Source: a bacterium (lineage in GTDB: Bacteria; Bacteroidota; Rhodothermia; Balneolales; M1805). Taken from it: a DNA stretch of 38,144 nucleotides. Below, in pieces: positions 6,244 through 35,875 of this stretch; the first letter of the stretch is position 1, and each line of letters starts with the position of its first letter. The notes beneath the pieces are model-generated. The model saw nothing but the letters and a program-made list of their open reading frames with translations. It did not search any database and had not been told where the DNA came from. The stretch lies in assembly GCA_006226965.1 (NCBI GenBank), contig SBGQ01000063.1, positions 1-38,144 on the forward strand. The letters are read 5' to 3'. Both the position numbers and the translations under genes were made by a program.

Positions 6244-6448
6244 TTGGTGTAATTCTGCCAGTTTCTGTTCTTTGCTGCCATAAATGTTTAACGTTTTACG
6301 AGAACCGAAATCCCGAAAGTGCTTAGAATCCAGTTCCCAAACCCTCTGCTGTTCTCGTTCGGCAAAATTCATGAATTCCTAATCGTAAGTGAGTTTTGTA
6401 TATACGCTGCACACGTAACGCTTCGCTGTAAAATTGGGTATATAGCTT

Positions 6449-6476
6449 GGAGGCTCCTGCATCCGCAGGAGTGACA
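6449..6476 (+). repeat. Dispersed hairpin element, copy 1
   Basis: The core is CTCCTGC (6454-6460), loop ATCC, GCAGGAG (6465-6471), flanked by GGAGG on the left and TGACA on the right. It shares the GAGxCTCC...GGAGTGAC frame with the element at 35670-35697 and the looser copies at 35750-35900. Like that copy it is followed by a T-rich stretch of about 40 bp and then an octamer array. Such short palindromes occur in many copies in bacterial spacers; the function here is unknown. Confidence 0.6.
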
Positions 6477-6511
6477 CTTTTTTGAACACTACCATGAGGA
6501 CTTTTCATCAT

Positions 6512-6575
6512 CTAATCAACTAATCAACTAATCAACTAATCATCTAATCATCTAATCAACTAATCAACTAATTGC
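6512..6575 (+). repeat. Octanucleotide tandem array, CTAATCAA x7 plus one degenerate unit
   Basis: Seven units of CTAATCAA or CTAATCAT at 6512-6567 and a degenerate eighth (CTAATTGC) to 6575. The reverse complement, TTGATTAG, is exactly the variant unit found twice in the second array at 35536-35631, so the two arrays belong to one family in opposite orientation. The array touches the stop codon of the PPK2 gene. Confidence 0.85.
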
Positions 6576-6576
6576 C

Positions 6577-8043
6577 TCATAATCTCATCGCTTTTACAAG
6601 AGCTTTTAGTACCATGAGTCTGGAAATGCGTTTGTCATTTGAAGGGATAATATGCCAAGGAGCGTGTTGCGTATCGGTTCTTACTAACATTTCATGAATG
6701 GCATCTTCATATTGCCCCCATTTATCGCGATTTCGCCAATCTTCGTCCGTGATTTTATAATTTTTATACGGTGTTTCTTCACGTGCTTTAAAACGAGCAA
6801 GTTGTTCTTCCGGTGTAATATGCAAAAAGAACTTCACCACACGAGTGCCGTGGTCAACCAGTTGCTGTTCAAACTCGTTTATTTCAAAGTAAGAACGCTT
6901 CCACTCGGGAACCGTGGCAAAACCCTCCACACGTTCCACCATAACGCGTCCGTACCAAGATCGGTCGTATAAAGTCACATTTCCGTCACGTGGAATATGT
7001 CGCCAAAATCTCCACAAATAATGATGTGCTTTTTCTTCATCGCTTGGGGCGGCAGTTTGAATTACACGATAAAACTTAGCATCCATACAAGAAACAACTC
7101 TGCGAATAGCGCCGCCTTTACCTGCAGCATCCCAACCTTCAAATACAATTACCGTCGATTTTTGTTTTTGATGAGATTTCCAGGATAAATCCTGAAGTTC
7201 AAGAGAAACGTCTTCAAATTCTTTTTTATAAGCTTTAATGTCTTTTACTGTTGGAAATTGCACCGTAGATATCACACTATGAGATTTTAACCAGTTTTGT
7301 TCTTCACTATAACCTAAATCAAGAGTAAGAGGCTTTTTATGTAATTGATTTTTAAGTGCTTTAATTAAAATTTCGGCTGTAAACACTTCACGATAGCGTT
7401 CATCAGATGCATCAATAACTTGCCACGGTGCAGCAGCAGAATCCGTTAAGCGTATCGTCTGTTCTGAAATGGTTAAGAAACTATCGTACTGTTTATGAAA
7501 CTCCCAGTCTTGTTTTGAAACACGCCAAGCTGTTCGTTTGTCTTTTTCCAGTTTTTTAAATCTCGCTTTTTGCTCTTTTTTGCTGATATGCAGCCACAAT
7601 TTAATAATGATTGTGCCATTATGAGACAACATGTGCTCATGAAAACGAATTCGATGTAATTGAGAATTAAACGATTCTTCACTTAAATCGCCATGAACCC
7701 GATCTATAATTGCTTGTGTGTACCAAGATCCAAAAAAGATTCCCACTGTTCCTGCTTGTGGCATAACTCGCCAATATCTCCAGAACTCAGGGCGATTTTT
7801 TTCTTCATCTGATAAAGCATGAAAAACTTGTGTTTGAATGGAGCGAGTATCCATCCATTCATGCAATTTATTTACAAGTGCGCCTTTACCGGAACCTTCC
7901 ACGCCCGAAATAATGAGCAAAACAGATTTGTTAGACTTACTCAGTTCATGTTGTAACTGTAATAATTCTAGGCGCAGCTGTGGGACTTTCTCATCATATA
8001 CTTCTTTAGAAAGTTTGTTTTCAGTGGATACATGGTTAAACAT
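6577..8043 (-). CDS. pap: Two-domain PPK2 (polyphosphate:AMP phosphotransferase type)
   Basis: 488 residues from the ATG at 8043. Two PPK2 domains are in tandem. The first has a Walker A loop GVEGSGKG (about residues 47-54) and a modified FFGSWYTQAIIDRVHG segment. The second has GWDAAGKGG (303-311) and the lid/catalytic DRSWYGRVMVERVEG (from 360). This double architecture is that of class II PPK2 enzymes (PAP), which phosphorylate AMP to ADP with polyphosphate; in that class the C-terminal domain is the active one, and here it also keeps the better motifs. The cytosolic role is nucleotide recharging from polyphosphate. An in-frame TTG at 8055 is less likely than ATG 8043, which has a G-rich stretch 5-9 bp upstream. 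Convergent with the deacetylase, divergent from the 2,095-aa gene. Confidence 0.88.
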   Translation of the reverse strand: MFNHVSTENKLSKEVYDEKVPQLRLELLQLQHELSKSNKSVLLIISGVEGSGKGALVNKLHEWMDTRSIQTQVFHALSDEEKNRPEFWRYWRVMPQAGTVGIFFGSWYTQAIIDRVHGDLSEESFNSQLHRIRFHEHMLSHNGTIIIKLWLHISKKEQKARFKKLEKDKRTAWRVSKQDWEFHKQYDSFLTISEQTIRLTDSAAAPWQVIDASDERYREVFTAEILIKALKNQLHKKPLTLDLGYSEEQNWLKSHSVISTVQFPTVKDIKAYKKEFEDVSLELQDLSWKSHQKQKSTVIVFEGWDAAGKGGAIRRVVSCMDAKFYRVIQTAAPSDEEKAHHYLWRFWRHIPRDGNVTLYDRSWYGRVMVERVEGFATVPEWKRSYFEINEFEQQLVDHGTRVVKFFLHITPEEQLARFKAREETPYKNYKITDEDWRNRDKWGQYEDAIHEMLVRTDTQHAPWHIIPSNDKRISRLMVLKALVKAMRL

Positions 8044-8213
8044 ATGAGCCCCCAATAGGTGTTCCGAATTGTAATCAAGGTAAGATTAATCGCTTGTCTT
8101 CCAAAATGGAATTCGTAATCCGAGTAGGGAACAGTGTGGTCTGTTTAGGCAACAGTTGAATTGTAAAAAAGTGTTTAGAGTCTTAATTGAATCGGTTTTT
8201 AATTGGCGCGTGA

Positions 8214-8263: not shown

Positions 8264-11200
8264 ATGTTACATCGATTACAAAGCACGTTGTTTGCTATGG
8301 TGTTGACACTAAGTTTGGTCTCACTAGCCGGAGCACAAAACACGATTAGCGGAACGGTGATAGATGCAACCACCGGGAATACTATCGAAGGTGCAACGGT
8401 TACTTTAGGCGCTGCTTTAGCTACAACCACCGATGCAAGCGGACACTATACCTTTACAGGTGTTCCAACGTCAAAAGTTCTTGCTGATTTTGAATTCGAC
8501 CCTTCCCAAGGTGATGCTCCATTATCAGTAAATTTTACCTCTTCAGTTGAAATTGAAACCTATCAACTTACCGTATCTAAAGACGGTTATATTTCTCAGG
8601 TTGATAATGATGTAATAATGACTAACGGAGAAGACAAAACGATGAATATCAGTTTGTCTCCTGTGTTAAATGAAGGCTCACTACGATTTGTTTTACATTG
8701 GGGCACAACGGAAAGTGATTTAGATTTTCATTTATATACACCTCAAATTGATGGCTCTAATTACATTGTTTATTATGGTAATCAGGGTTCATTATTGAGT
8801 GCACCATTTGCCTCATTAGATTTAGACGATACAAGTTTTGAGGGGCCGGAAACCATTACAATCGGACAATTAATTACAGGTACATATACTCTGTATGTGA
8901 ACAATTTCAGCCAGAATTATCCAATCGGTGAATCCGGAGCTTATGTATTAATTTATCAAGGATCGCAGCAAATTACCCGAATTAATATCAATACAAGCGG
9001 CACAGATAAATACTGGATAGTCGGTACTATTGACGGTGATTCAGGTGTGTTCTCCGAAGTAAACGGATTCTCGCCAACCGATCCTGCCGGATTGTATAAA
9101 ATGGCGCCAAAAACATCGTTTTCACTGGCAGAATTGACACCATCTTATATTTGGACATTCGGTGACGGAGACATGAGCGGAGATGCTAATCCTATGTATG
9201 AATATCTAAATCCGGGTTTGTATTCGGTAAGCTTAACCGTAAATACTTCTCCCTATTTTGATGATGCAGTAGTAGTAAAGCCGGATATCATTGATGTGTT
9301 TTCCGGAAATTCTGTGTCTGAAATTGAACCGAACGAGTATTCATCTCAAGGACAAGAGCTCACCATAGGTGTAACTGCTAATGGTTCTATAGGTTTTGAT
9401 AACGATGGTAATGACTGGTATGCAATCTCTATACCGGAAGACGGAAGCTTTAACGTAGAAGTAACTAAATCAAGTGGTTTAGCATCTCGTTTAGCATTTT
9501 ATCATAACAATGGCGGATATACAGGCTCATTACTAAAAGAAGGCTCCGGTACTAGCGATAGTTTTGGCGGAACAGATGTGATTACGTTCCCGGATATTGC
9601 AGCAGGAACCTACTATATTCACATTTACATGGACAATATAGGCGGCGTTTTCCCAGGCGGTTCAGGAACCTATCAAATTGCCACAAGCTTCGAACCTACA
9701 GGCATTTTAGCTGAGTATGAATCGAATGATTATCCATCGCAAGCAATTCCGTTAGATTTGAATGCAGGAACATCCGGTCATATCGGATATTGGGGCGCAA
9801 CAGCTATAGATCGTGAAGATTGGTACGCTATTGATGTATTAGAAGACGGACATTTAAAAGTGCAAATCGACAAAAGTGCAACTTTAGCTTCATCATTGTA
9901 TCTATATCACAATAATGGCGGCTATTCAGGTACTTTAATAAAAGAAGGCACTGCTAATTCTGATAAATTGGGTGGCTCTGATGTTATAGAAATGTACGAT
10001 TTAGTAGCCGGAACCTATTTTATTCAGGTGTTTCTGCAAACGGATTCATACGCTAACAATATCTCCGGATATGGCACTTATGAGTTAACAACCTACTTTG
10101 AAAGTACAGGAATCGAAAATGATGTTGAACCGAATGACTATCCGTCGCAAGCTCAAATCATCAATACTACAGATATCAAAACAGGTCATATAGGTTATTG
10201 GGGTGCAACAGCTCAAGACCGTGAAGATTGGTATGCCGTAAGTATTCCTGAAGACGGTGCATTGCAAATTACCGTAATGAAAGGGTTGACACTTAGTTCA
10301 AAAGTATTCCTTTATCAAAATAATGGAGGTTATTCCGGTTCTTTAGTGAAAGAAGGTAATACTAACGAAACACAGTTTGGCGGACCGACTTTAGTAGAAG
10401 TTCCAAATTTAAGTGCAGGTGAATATTTAATTCAGATTTACTTGCAAACAGATTCTTATGCGCAAAACATTAGCGGTTTTGGTACATATGAATTAAGCAT
10501 GATGTATTTGCCTACAGGTGTTCCTGCTGATTTTGAGCCCAATGATTACACCACACAGGCACAAATGGTTTTCATGAATCAAAAAACTAGCGGACACATC
10601 GGTTATTTCGGTTCTGCACCGATAGATGTAGTAGACTGGTTTAAATTCACCAATGAAACTTCAGGAGATGTAACAATTCAAGTAAATAAAGACATGAATT
10701 TGGCATCAAAATGGAGCTTATTTGAAGCAAACGGTGATTATAATGGTGCTTTAATAACAAGCGGAACTGCTCAGCCAACAGATTTTGGCGGTTCTGACAT
10801 GGTTTCCGTTCCAGCTTTACCAGCAGGTGATTATTACGTTCAGATTTACCTTGAAATGAGTCCGATGGCTCAATATCTGGGTGGATTTGGTACGTATGAA
10901 CTCATGTTATCAACAGGTGGAGTTGTTTCAGATTATATAGAATCAACCATGGAAGGCGGTTTATGGTCTGAGACTACAACATGGATAAACGGTGTTGTTC
11001 CACAATATGGAGATAATGTAATTATTCATGGTGATGTTCAGTTGGACTATACCACAGAAGTAAACGAATTAATCGTTGATTATCCGGCACGTTTGTACAA
11101 CAATCATCCAAACGGAGAAGTAGTAGATCTGATGGTAGTCGGAAACCTCACGAACAACGGTTACATCTTTACAACCATGGAATATGGCGGATTTAGCTTT

Positions 11201-14200
11201 AACGTTATCGGAAATATTATGAATAACGGCGTTATTGCAACGAATACCTTCAATTTACATGGCAGTGGAGAACATGCAAATCAAGTATTGTCAGGACATG
11301 GCCAAATTGGTTATACAGACAATAACAACTTGCCGACCGGTTTACTAGGTTTAGTAACATCAATCAGCAAATATGAAGGAATGGTAATCGTAAATGGTAT
11401 TACCAATTTCAGTAGTGTTTCAATTGATGAATATTTCATGGGATTTGATTTATCTGCTCCGGGTGAATATTCAACGAACGAAATCGGTTTTACCAATAAC
11501 AACGATCAGAACATGTACAGCATCGTAAATGCACAACAAATTATTGGTGGACGTGTATTTGCCGATGGAAATGCGTTGTTCTTTAGAACTCAATTCCAAG
11601 ATGTATCCTTAGATGGAATGATTCTCGTTGCAGAGCATATTGCACTGAACGGTTCAACCAATAACTATGCTCATATAATTGGTGTGGATGTTTTATCATC
11701 ACCGGCAAAATTGGCAAAAGTTCAACCAAACGTTACTATGCCTGCATTAAGAGATTTGGGGTTAGAAATAAATGGCGTAATACATAACTATGGCCAAATA
11801 TTTAACGCCGGTATCTCTGAAATGCAGTTTAATGCTTATGTATTTGGTGATATTTACAACCATAACAGATGGGCAACTGATTTCACATTCATGGTTGCTA
11901 ACGGCGACCAAAGTGTATCATCAGATCAGCAACCGGATTTCATCGGGTTTGCTTCGAATTTGGCAATTCCTGCAAATGTTGTAGATGCTACCACATGGCA
12001 ATGGTTTTTCTGGCCATATGAAAATGATAAAGAACGGTTAGAAGGCGAAGTAAACGAATACATTTACGGCGAGCCTCCTTATGAAGAAGCGTATGGTGCC
12101 GTTATTTGTAGTACCAATGTTGGTTGGTCGCGCAAGGTTAATCTGTACTTGAATGATAAAATAAACTCTGATTTAATGGCAGGATTCGAAACCAATATTC
12201 AAAACGGTTCGGCTCCGCTGTATGTAGAGTTTTACGATCGTTCGTATGGTAACCCTACCTCATGGTATTGGGAATTTGGTGATGGCGAATCATCAAACGA
12301 ACAAAACCCGACTCATACCTACGTAAATCCGGGAATGTACACGGTAAGTCTCACCATTTGGAATGGAGATTTACAAGACCGAGTTGAATACATGAACTTC
12401 ATCCAAGTATTTGGAGAAGGAGACTATGGTGTTCTAACCGGGCAAATTACGGATGCAGTTACCGGTTTACCTGTGCCTTTTGCATGGGTTGAAATAGGTT
12501 GGATGAGCACAACTACCGATGAAAACGGATATTACAGAATCGAAAACATTCCTCCGGCAGGAATGCATGTCGATTTCTGGGCTGATCAAAATTATGGTAT
12601 GGCACCGTTGGGTGTACAATTCTACAGTAGTGTGCTGGATGGAACGTATCCGTTCTATGTAAGCGTAACTGGTTATAACTATTATTATTACAACCATGTT
12701 ATGATTATTCCGGGACAAGAAACTGTATTTAACGTGAGTTTGTCACCATTACTTACATCTGCAACTATGCGATTTGTACTCAACTGGAATGCAGCACCTA
12801 CCGATTTAGATGCTCACTTACAAACTCCGCAGTTTAGCAACGGCAACTCATATCATGTGTATTATGCAGAGTCTGGAAATATGGAAGCTGAGCCATTTGC
12901 TCAGTTAGACCATGATGTTACCAATGGTTACGGACCGGAAACCATTACAATAAAAGAACTTACATCAGGATTATATCATTTCTATATCTATAATTTCTCC
13001 GGTGATGTTCCAATAAATGAGTCCGGTGCCGTAGTTCAGGTTTACAATGAAAATGGTATTCTGCAAACTATTGAAGCTCCAAAAGAGGGCAATGGTTTAT
13101 ACTGGTATGTCGGTACGATTGATGGGGAAAATCAAAACTTTACACTCATTAATACCATACAGACTACAGAGCCCGGTAGCCCGCTGATGAAATCTGTTCG
13201 AATTCCTAAAGTTCAGCCGCTTGCAACTGAAGCCGAACCGGTAATCAGCTATTATTGGGAATTTGGTGACGGAAATTCATCAACAGAAATGAATCCATTC
13301 CATATGTACACTAATCCTGGCTTTTATTCAGTTCGATTAGTTGTAAACAATGGCGTTCAACAAGCTGAAATGTATTATCAGGATTATATCCGGGTTGCTG
13401 ACCCAAGTAATAGCGTTTTAGCTGTTAATGATACTGTTACCGTTATAGCCGGACAGGCAATACGCATTAACATGCTTGATAATGATTATCTGCCGAATAA
13501 CGGTTATTACAATTCTTGGTTTATGAATATCGAATCTGCTCAGTTGGGTATGCTTATTCCGTCTATGGATAACCGCTTTGCCATGTACATTGCCAGTGCA
13601 GATGTATCGGGTATTGAAGAATTCCGCTATGGAATTGCTAATGAGTACAGTTATTCAGAAGCGAGTATATTCGTTCGAGTAATTCCGGGTATTGTAGTTT
13701 CGAATACTCCGCCGGTTGTTATGTTGCCACTTGAATTATCCATTTTGGAAGATTCTTCAATTGTATTCCCTGCACGTAAAGTAATCTTTGATGACCGAAC
13801 AGATTTTAATGATTTGTTGATTGAGTTCGGAACATCATCTACAAATGTTCAGGTAAACTACAATGCAGAAACCGGTCAAGTTGCCATTACTTCTTTACCA
13901 AACTTCTGGGGAACCGCGCGAGTAGGTGTAAAAGCAACCGACGAACAAGGTCTGTACAGAATAGATTCTATGTTGGTAACATTTATTCCTGTAAATGATA
14001 TGCCATTCGCTCAAGTAACCGTTTCATCGGGTGAATTGGTTGAAGGCGGAATGAAGTTTACATTCACAGACGAGTCCACAGACAATCTAGATCCTGAAGG
14101 CGGTATCGTTTCTTGGTTGTGGGATTTTGGAGATGGAGAATCATCAACAGAACAAAATCCGGAACACATTTTCAAAGCAAACGGCATGTACACTGTTACC

Positions 14201-14551
14201 TTAACCGTAACGGATAATGCAGGAGCAACTGCAGTTGCAGAAGAAGATGTGGAAATCGTTATAACCAGCAACGAATCCAACATGGTTTATACTTTGGCGT
14301 TACATGGAAACTATCCGAATCCGTTTAACCCAACAACAACTATCCGATTTGAAGTTCCTGAAACAGGAAATGTAGAATTGTCCGTTTATAATACCTTGGG
14401 TCAAAAAGTGGCTACGGTATTAAATAAAACTATGTATACAGGTTTGTATAGTGTTCCATTTGACGCATCAAAACTATCAAGCGGAACCTATTTATATGTA
14501 ATGCGCTACCAAAACAAACAATTAGTTGGCCGCATGACATTAGTAAAATAG
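8264..14551 (+). CDS. Giant modular T9SS-secreted surface protein (2,095 aa)
   Basis: Signal peptide (1-25, ending AGAQ). Then in order: carboxypeptidase-regulatory-like domain (about 28-129); DUF2135/YfaP-like domain (about 140-260, DLDFHL and GPETITI); PKD (about 290-345, WTFGDGDMSGDANP); four PPC-type repeats (about 353-882); a beta-strand-rich region of about 420 residues resembling a parallel beta-helix (890-1305); PKD (1306-1383); second regulatory-like domain (1389-1496); second DUF2135-like domain (1500-1623, DLDAHL, YGPETITI); PKD (1657-1713); two cadherin/Ig-like domains (1720-1913); PKD (1914-2003); T9SS type A sorting domain (from about 2008, NYPNPFNPTTTIRFE). No protease or glycosidase domain is seen, so an adhesive or structural surface role is inferred. 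The start is fixed by the strong SD. Transcribed alone; a hairpin follows. Confidence 0.9.
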   Translation: MLHRLQSTLFAMVLTLSLVSLAGAQNTISGTVIDATTGNTIEGATVTLGAALATTTDASGHYTFTGVPTSKVLADFEFDPSQGDAPLSVNFTSSVEIETYQLTVSKDGYISQVDNDVIMTNGEDKTMNISLSPVLNEGSLRFVLHWGTTESDLDFHLYTPQIDGSNYIVYYGNQGSLLSAPFASLDLDDTSFEGPETITIGQLITGTYTLYVNNFSQNYPIGESGAYVLIYQGSQQITRININTSGTDKYWIVGTIDGDSGVFSEVNGFSPTDPAGLYKMAPKTSFSLAELTPSYIWTFGDGDMSGDANPMYEYLNPGLYSVSLTVNTSPYFDDAVVVKPDIIDVFSGNSVSEIEPNEYSSQGQELTIGVTANGSIGFDNDGNDWYAISIPEDGSFNVEVTKSSGLASRLAFYHNNGGYTGSLLKEGSGTSDSFGGTDVITFPDIAAGTYYIHIYMDNIGGVFPGGSGTYQIATSFEPTGILAEYESNDYPSQAIPLDLNAGTSGHIGYWGATAIDREDWYAIDVLEDGHLKVQIDKSATLASSLYLYHNNGGYSGTLIKEGTANSDKLGGSDVIEMYDLVAGTYFIQVFLQTDSYANNISGYGTYELTTYFESTGIENDVEPNDYPSQAQIINTTDIKTGHIGYWGATAQDREDWYAVSIPEDGALQITVMKGLTLSSKVFLYQNNGGYSGSLVKEGNTNETQFGGPTLVEVPNLSAGEYLIQIYLQTDSYAQNISGFGTYELSMMYLPTGVPADFEPNDYTTQAQMVFMNQKTSGHIGYFGSAPIDVVDWFKFTNETSGDVTIQVNKDMNLASKWSLFEANGDYNGALITSGTAQPTDFGGSDMVSVPALPAGDYYVQIYLEMSPMAQYLGGFGTYELMLSTGGVVSDYIESTMEGGLWSETTTWINGVVPQYGDNVIIHGDVQLDYTTEVNELIVDYPARLYNNHPNGEVVDLMVVGNLTNNGYIFTTMEYGGFSFNVIGNIMNNGVIATNTFNLHGSGEHANQVLSGHGQIGYTDNNNLPTGLLGLVTSISKYEGMVIVNGITNFSSVSIDEYFMGFDLSAPGEYSTNEIGFTNNNDQNMYSIVNAQQIIGGRVFADGNALFFRTQFQDVSLDGMILVAEHIALNGSTNNYAHIIGVDVLSSPAKLAKVQPNVTMPALRDLGLEINGVIHNYGQIFNAGISEMQFNAYVFGDIYNHNRWATDFTFMVANGDQSVSSDQQPDFIGFASNLAIPANVVDATTWQWFFWPYENDKERLEGEVNEYIYGEPPYEEAYGAVICSTNVGWSRKVNLYLNDKINSDLMAGFETNIQNGSAPLYVEFYDRSYGNPTSWYWEFGDGESSNEQNPTHTYVNPGMYTVSLTIWNGDLQDRVEYMNFIQVFGEGDYGVLTGQITDAVTGLPVPFAWVEIGWMSTTTDENGYYRIENIPPAGMHVDFWADQNYGMAPLGVQFYSSVLDGTYPFYVSVTGYNYYYYNHVMIIPGQETVFNVSLSPLLTSATMRFVLNWNAAPTDLDAHLQTPQFSNGNSYHVYYAESGNMEAEPFAQLDHDVTNGYGPETITIKELTSGLYHFYIYNFSGDVPINESGAVVQVYNENGILQTIEAPKEGNGLYWYVGTIDGENQNFTLINTIQTTEPGSPLMKSVRIPKVQPLATEAEPVISYYWEFGDGNSSTEMNPFHMYTNPGFYSVRLVVNNGVQQAEMYYQDYIRVADPSNSVLAVNDTVTVIAGQAIRINMLDNDYLPNNGYYNSWFMNIESAQLGMLIPSMDNRFAMYIASADVSGIEEFRYGIANEYSYSEASIFVRVIPGIVVSNTPPVVMLPLELSILEDSSIVFPARKVIFDDRTDFNDLLIEFGTSSTNVQVNYNAETGQVAITSLPNFWGTARVGVKATDEQGLYRIDSMLVTFIPVNDMPFAQVTVSSGELVEGGMKFTFTDESTDNLDPEGGIVSWLWDFGDGESSTEQNPEHIFKANGMYTVTLTVTDNAGATAVAEEDVEIVITSNESNMVYTLALHGNYPNPFNPTTTIRFEVPETGNVELSVYNTLGQKVATVLNKTMYTGLYSVPFDASKLSSGTYLYVMRYQNKQLVGRMTLVK
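9321..10910 (+). repeat. Four tandem PPC-type repeats inside the giant protein gene
   Basis: Four units of about 390 bp encode similar domains that begin with an E-x-N-D/E-Y-x-S/T-Q-A motif and contain GHIGYWGA, DREDWYA, a Y/F-x-N-NGGY stretch and a C-terminal GTYEL. Units 2 and 3 are the closest pair (both have SGHIGYWGAT or TGHIGYWGAT and LQTDSYA). Bacterial pre-peptidase C-terminal domains of this type are usually trailing domains of secreted proteases; here they are internal with no protease. Confidence 0.8.
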
Positions 14552-35473: not shown

Positions 35474-35535
35474 GAAGAATATATGATTCTATGATGAAAG
35501 TTTAATGAAGTTTTTCGCTTAAAACGTTCTTAAAG

Positions 35536-35631
35536 TGATGAGTTGATGAGTTGATGAGTTGATTAGTTGATGAGTTGATGAGTTGATGAGTTGATGAGTT
35601 GATGAGTTGATGAGTTGATGAGTTGATTAGT
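35536..35631 (-). repeat. Octanucleotide tandem array, 12 units
   Basis: Twelve 8-bp units, TGATGAGT with two TGATTAGT variants (35560-35567 and 35624-35631), then degenerate units to about 35650. Read in the other phase the unit is TTGATGAG, and the variant TTGATTAG is exactly the reverse complement of the unit at 6512-6575. Confidence 0.88.
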
Positions 35632-35669
35632 TGATGTAATGATGAAATGATTTTGTAACGTAAAAACAC

Positions 35670-35697
35670 GTCACTCCCGTGCATACGGGAGTCTCAT
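35670..35697 (-). repeat. Dispersed hairpin element, copy 2
   Basis: ACTCCCGT (35673-35680), loop GCAT, ACGGGAGT (35685-35692). On the minus strand it reads GAGACTCCC...GGGAGTGAC and is followed after about 40 bp by the octamer array, the same order and orientation as copy 1 at 6449-6476. Confidence 0.6.
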
Positions 35698-35749
35698 GTT
35701 GATTGGGATTTTGCAGAAAATAAAGTGTTAAACAGGTTGTAAATGGTAT

Positions 35750-35775
35750 GAGATTCCCTCATCCGAGTGAATGAC
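35750..35775 (+). repeat. Dispersed hairpin element, copy 3
   Basis: GAGATTCCCTC, loop ATCC, GAGTGAATGAC; stem ATTCCCTC/GAGTGAAT with one mismatch. The ATCC loop is the same as in copy 1. No octamer array is attached. Confidence 0.5.
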
Positions 35776-35840: not shown

Positions 35841-35865
35841 AGATTGCTGCTTTCGCAGCAATGAC
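35841..35865 (+). repeat. Dispersed hairpin element, copy 4
   Basis: AGATTGCTGC, loop TTTC, GCAGCAATGAC; perfect 8-bp stem ATTGCTGC/GCAGCAAT (35843-35850, 35855-35862). The outer AGAT...AATGAC frame matches copy 3. Confidence 0.55.
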
Positions 35866-35875
35866 GTGGCTTAAT

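Follow-up and report, generated by a model that had tools for sequence, protein, structure and literature searches.

The window (the whole stretch of DNA analysed here, 38,144 nucleotides) is contig 35 of a 3.78 Mb draft genome in 184 contigs, and two of its intergenic regions carry a composite of REP hairpin, T-rich spacer and tandem octamer array. Copy 1, on the plus strand, has a lone hairpin and not an inverted pair: the CGTC-type REP GCTCCTGC-ATCC-GCAGGAGT (6453-6472), with an 8-bp stem, a mismatch-free 7-bp core and a 4-nt loop, is directly followed by a GAC tag (6473-6475), a T-rich spacer (TTTTTTGAACACTACC..., 6476-6503) whose T-run is common to other copies, and an octamer array (6504-6571) in which one TTCATCAT unit precedes the CTAATCAA/CTAATCAT units. 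If only the CTAATCAW units are counted, the array occupies 6512-6571 and the T-rich spacer, which contains TTTCATCAT, runs to 6511. The TGA stop codon (6577-6579) of a minus-strand polyphosphate:AMP phosphotransferase (PPK2 family) gene (6577-8055), whose C-terminus is complete, lies 5 bp past the array. On the other side, upstream of the hairpin, self-comparison finds another dispersed-repeat module that belongs to the same intergenic mosaic (6276-6397, unstranded). At 8264-14551 the window also encodes a large, 2095-aa secreted protein that combines PKD domains with a sorting tail for type IX secretion.

Copy 2 lies on the minus strand. Its hairpin B, ACTCCCGTATGCACGGGAGT (that is, ACTCCCGT-ATGC-ACGGGAGT; 35673-35692, or 35670-35692 with the tag), is also a CGTC-type REP and is adjoined by a GAC tag (35670-35672), a T-rich spacer with degenerate octamers (TTTTTACGTTACAAAATCATTTCATCATTACATCAA, 35631-35669) and an array of CTMATCAW octamers, mostly CTCATCAA (35535-35630). 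Hairpin B and a second hairpin, C, are inverted around a linker of ~60 bp and make a 106-bp REPIN-like unit (35670-35775, minus strand), and a further REP hairpin of the same mosaic, ATTGCTGCTTTCGCAGCAATGACG, is on the plus strand at 35843-35866. Copy 2 touches no gene edge and is 106 bp from a start codon. A search of the window against Rfam gave no match to a known structured RNA. The sequence-only reading had placed a two-copy composite at these sites, and both copies are indeed there, with order, orientation, T-run and TTTCATCAT(T) in common. Its T-rich stretch of 35-40 bp is present as well, but in most copies the second half of that stretch consists of degenerate 8-bp units (ATCATTAC / ATTACATC), diverged octamers that lead into the perfect array; the array thus starts closer to the hairpin than had been held, and by our reading the truly non-repeated spacer is only ~15-28 bp.

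Are hairpins and arrays linked in the genome as a whole? A pattern search found two adjoining exact octamer units at 20 genomic sites, within which all 106 matches fall (repeat counts other than those from pattern searches rest on ~425 kb of the 3.78 Mb). At the 17 array sites with readable upstream sequence, we applied a strict detector (8-bp stem with ≤1 mismatch, short loop and GAC tag, in the same orientation and ≤210 bp upstream), and the background was random intergenic points in contigs that had not been picked for arrays. A strict hairpin is present upstream at 12 of the 17 sites versus 1.6% of the random points (P ~1.6e-18). Four more sites (C3, C43, C46 and C89) have a degraded copy of the hairpin sequence, which brings the total to 16/17; the C45 array is the sole site among the 17 with no hairpin upstream. 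The order at the copies is hairpin, T-run, degenerate octamers, perfect octamers. The alternative that hairpins and arrays both gather in intergenic DNA and are otherwise unlinked could appeal to the C45 array and to the existence of hairpins without arrays, but the excess over intergenic expectation, the shared orientation and the conserved T-run spacer make it extremely improbable, and the strict-detector comparison rejects it. The earlier proposal that the two copies are not chance neighbours is thereby borne out, and the genome scan that was to reveal any independent distribution of hairpins and arrays refutes independence. The composite is real and genome-wide, with at least 16 copies.

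The commonest form of the hairpin, ACTCCCGTATNCACGGGAGTGAC, is matched with ≤3 mismatches at 33 sites, and a reversed control gives no match. In 25 varied copies 95.5% of cells are paired and compensatory changes occur at 7 of the 8 pairs, a covariation score that was reached by 0 of 500 shuffles. Stem, loop and tag fit the CGTC-1 family of CGTC-tagged REPs, which includes Neisseria dRS3 (Di Nocera et al. 2013, PMC3733652): the stem is 8 bp and the loop 4 nt, the first pair is A-T (A-U in 23/25 copies), and the terminal CGTC/TGTC tag is seen as GAC(G/A) following the stem in almost every copy. The unpaired tail does not fit CCA; CTC predominates there (GAG on the strand shown), with CTA or CTG in some copies. 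This mismatch does not exclude membership in CGTC-1, because a CCA-fitting tail is claimed for most CGTC REP repeats only (PMC3733652). Like CGTC-1 REPs, the present hairpins are intergenic and have no dedicated transposase adjoining them; unlike them, they are tied to a T-rich spacer and to octamer or heptamer arrays, whereas most of the published REPs are unassociated with other repeats and no tandem arrays are named for them (PMC3733652). Among 59 other genomes of the order, 9 have a similar hairpin with ATTCCC/GGGAAT (10 of 60 with the present genome counted), and none of these others has the octamer arrays.

Inverted hairpin pairs are common in this genome. As in REPINs, two inverted REPs surround a linker at near-constant length (106-108 bp in most units, for example 35670-35775 in the window, and 115 bp at C178), and at least three different linkers are in use. 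Some REPIN-like units stand in tandem, three at ~181 bp spacing in one contig (C169, L201:767-1130) and two in another (C178, L206:827-1110). Self-comparison of ~425 kb shows that the intergenic repeats, 50-1030 bp long, are built of such hairpins and several modules. Neisserial NIME are dRS3 hairpins alternating with repeat modules. By that general description the present mosaics resemble NIME in plan only, as intergenic combinations of hairpins and interchangeable modules; they differ in their short-period tandem tails and probably also in the sequences of the modules.

The tail is the variable part of the composite. Only ~12 of the 33 hairpin sites have an octamer array behind them, and the same hairpin and T-run also precede CATCCGC heptamers (C113, C75), CTACATCG octamers (C151) or other modules, so the tail is best described as an interchangeable slot. 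The suggestion that hairpin, spacer and array form one element therefore stands in so far as the composite recurs, and fails in so far as there is no fixed unit. Periods 8 and 7 dominate the tandem arrays of the genome. Heptamer families GGATGTC, ATCCGAC, GCGGATG, TCTGCCA and TGATGGC (L059:5977-6071, L053:8926-9002, L061:1-85, L050:8981-9029 and L033:2771-2843) occur in the same genome; some of them end contigs, and many of their units contain GAT. The STRR of cyanobacteria are dispersed intergenic short tandem arrays of 7-bp units. The exact arrays at the 20 sites are likewise tandem, short-period, dispersed and intergenic, as in STRR/LSSR repeats, and the heptamers add to the likeness; by description, units and hosts differ.

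The arrays range from 2 to at least 12 units in length. Within the arrays of this one genome neighbouring units are identical in 93 of 127 pairs, versus a mean of 80.6 identical pairs when units are shuffled within arrays, and 93 was reached in 0 of 2000 shuffles. Such runs of identical units point to slippage, in agreement with the earlier idea that the octamer tail is prone to change in length. Contigs C16, C55, C61, C125 and C167 end within arrays, and C16 and C167, which share one unit, may be the two sides of one array. The arrays account for some of the contig breaks of the draft assembly.

A REP-type (Y1) transposase had been proposed as something to look for. A whole-genome search with Pfam PF01797 (Y1_Tnp) gave no match, a false negative given that NCBIfam NF047646 (REP_Tyr_transpos) matches two fragments at the ends of contigs C169 and C153 (G000:C169:13130-13560 and G000:C153:15280-15527; L198 and L197). 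These appear to be halves of one gene that is broken at a repetitive VESSQTVESSH-type stretch. The gene is thus present, split over two contig ends, but the hairpins studied here are absent from its flanks, which hold a different inverted motif, CATTCGGGTCGGGCTATCCGCTG, with only 4 genomic copies; for this reason a link between transposase and hairpins is unsupported. In REPINs with RAYT genes (PMC3116915), which resemble the present units in having inverted REP hairpin pairs of fixed length around a linker, the tag is GTAG rather than CGTC, the RAYT is flanked by its own REPs and there is no octamer tail. These facts bear on the possibility of a single non-autonomous mobile element in which a REP-associated (Y1) transposase acting in trans moves hairpin, spacer and octamer tail together, in the way that RAYTs move REPINs, with the array as its variable tail. 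The recurrence of order and orientation at 16/17 sites, the fixed-length inverted pairs, and three REPIN-like units in C169 ~4 kb from the fragment of the one REP_Tyr_transpos gene are what such an element would give, but we judge it unlikely in view of the CATTCGGGTCGGGCTATCCGCTG flanks, the many hairpins without a tail, the exchange of octamer for heptamer tails behind one hairpin, and the reported absence of a dedicated transposase for CGTC REPs (PMC3733652). A REP/REPIN mosaic with a slippage-prone tail is the better fit.

Where do the arrays end? There are 19 sites with a gene downstream. At 11 of them the hairpin-distal array end is ≤8 bp from a convergent gene's stop codon, and 5 of these 11 abutting genes use as their stop the TGA within the first octamer, read in gene sense. 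Most of the abutting genes look full-length: Pfam or NCBIfam matches reach or nearly reach the model end in PPK2, XseA, TamB, FtsX, OGT and GNAT genes, and homologues of the PPK2 protein align to residue 490 of 492. The genes at C43 and C45 have partial family matches only, the one at C46 has no family hit, and the C12 gene, like that at C46, is outside this full-length test. Insertion that truncated the genes was considered and is ruled out for most abutting genes by the complete family models. An array can halt at a coding boundary with base precision and leave the gene whole. The abutting stops are 9 TGA, 2 TAG and 0 TAA, while among 273 sampled genes TAA makes up 64.5% and TGA 18.7% of stops (P ~1e-5 each way). 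This TGA bias is partly built in, as the array supplies TGA or TAG to any frame that enters it, and complete C-termini limit that bias without removing it. Contact with stop codons is the part of the pattern that we did not find described, save for a parallel in TAACTGA arrays (PMC4679880); literature searches with the literal octamers, a weak method, gave just primers and unrelated sequences, and no published name, among the 12 best of 4,508 papers.

In Beggiatoaceae those TAACTGA heptamers form arrays immediately in front of start codons, for which a regulatory role has been proposed (MacGregor 2015, PMC4679880). The present arrays share with them a short period, intergenic position, a patchy distribution over phyla that includes Bacteroidetes, assemblies that break inside them, placement near starts or, in reverse orientation, directly behind a stop, and all-frame stops on one strand (PMC4679880). 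They differ in period (8, not 7), in unit and in being joined to a REP hairpin, and in this genome they lie mostly at stop codons and not directly at start codons. In two unrelated genomes that a cross-genome scan led to, a Candidatus Amulumruptor MAG (G429) and a Fulvivirgaceae bacterium (G427), dispersed octamer arrays occur without these hairpins, and there 14 of 17 right ends and 3 of 16 left ends are ≤12 bp from a start or stop codon (P 4e-4, with three start codons placed by eye); the MAG uses start codons as edges. Octamer arrays were found in 0 of 394 other sampled genomes of the phylum, so dense use of the octamer is rare. These data raise the idea that CTMATCAW and kindred octamer arrays form a widespread class, one that would arise or insert exactly at coding-sequence edges in unrelated phyla, with fixed polarity and TGA preference and with formation tied to translation boundaries, and that would have become a REP mosaic tail in the present lineage. 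We consider this rather doubtful. If arrays halt at coding boundaries of whole genes in other genomes too, gene-edge arrays would be a testable case of repeat growth under translation constraint or of stop-codon seeding.

Contact with gene edges, here and in the hairpin-free genomes, and the regulatory proposal for TAACTGA arrays could also be read as signs of a functional 3'-UTR or regulatory device, in which the array would serve as all-frame tandem stops or as a single-stranded protein-binding tract beside the coding region and the hairpin would end or protect the mRNA. The copy 1 hairpin has a terminator-like score; against this, the hairpin to T-run gap of 3-6 nt is poor for an intrinsic terminator. 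Nor do the wide range of array lengths, the 8 of 19 arrays of this genome that are not at a gene edge, the restriction of all-frame stops to the reverse strand of the array, the lack of any common function among the neighbouring genes in family searches, or the lack of arrays in the 394 other genomes favour such a device, and we think it improbable.

The explanation that we hold to be probable, with some reserve, is that the window copies are intergenic mosaics that combine CGTC-type REP hairpins (frequently in inverted pairs of 106-108 bp), linker modules and a slippage-grown, STRR-like tail at convergent stops. The tail slot would be filled by a short-period array, either of the CTAATCAA octamer family or of heptamers. 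Homologous recombination or gene conversion between mosaics may have spread the copies, as may a REP transposase at an earlier time, and each array would then grow and shrink by slippage. Tolerance of an array directly at a stop codon may come from its sequence in gene sense, (TTGATTAG)n, which gives TGA stops in every frame, and from the near absence of predicted folding in the array itself; the hairpin beyond it could serve as a terminator or other structure of the 3' end. That TGA is enriched suggests that arrays join or are seeded at TGA through microhomology with their own TGA. The position of copy 2 away from a gene edge, the hairpin to T-run gap and the partly built-in TGA bias count against this explanation. 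Within a known class of intergenic repeats the composite is unusual, and any function is putative; REP hairpins are mostly treated separately from short tandem arrays, and here they make one recurrent mosaic.

Related arrays also occur outside the phylum. A cross-genome scan for a pattern of TGAC, gap and octamers gave 40 stretches, from Bacteroidota, Planctomycetes, Chloroflexi and others; as TGAC was forced on one side, frequencies are not obtainable from it. Hairpin plus array is clear in just one of these stretches, at one site in a gammaproteobacterial MAG (L095), an unrelated genome: on the minus strand near 1551-1616, a CGTC-type hairpin, GGATCCCCGCTTTCGCGGGGATGAC, is followed by a long CTAATCAA array and then by a GTCATTGCGAG repeat. 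In other phyla related octamer arrays are often paired in inverted orientation (TTGATTGG... then ...CCAATCAA), and such pairs could fold into large hairpins behind genes (L093, L094, L102, L109, L111, L126 and L128).
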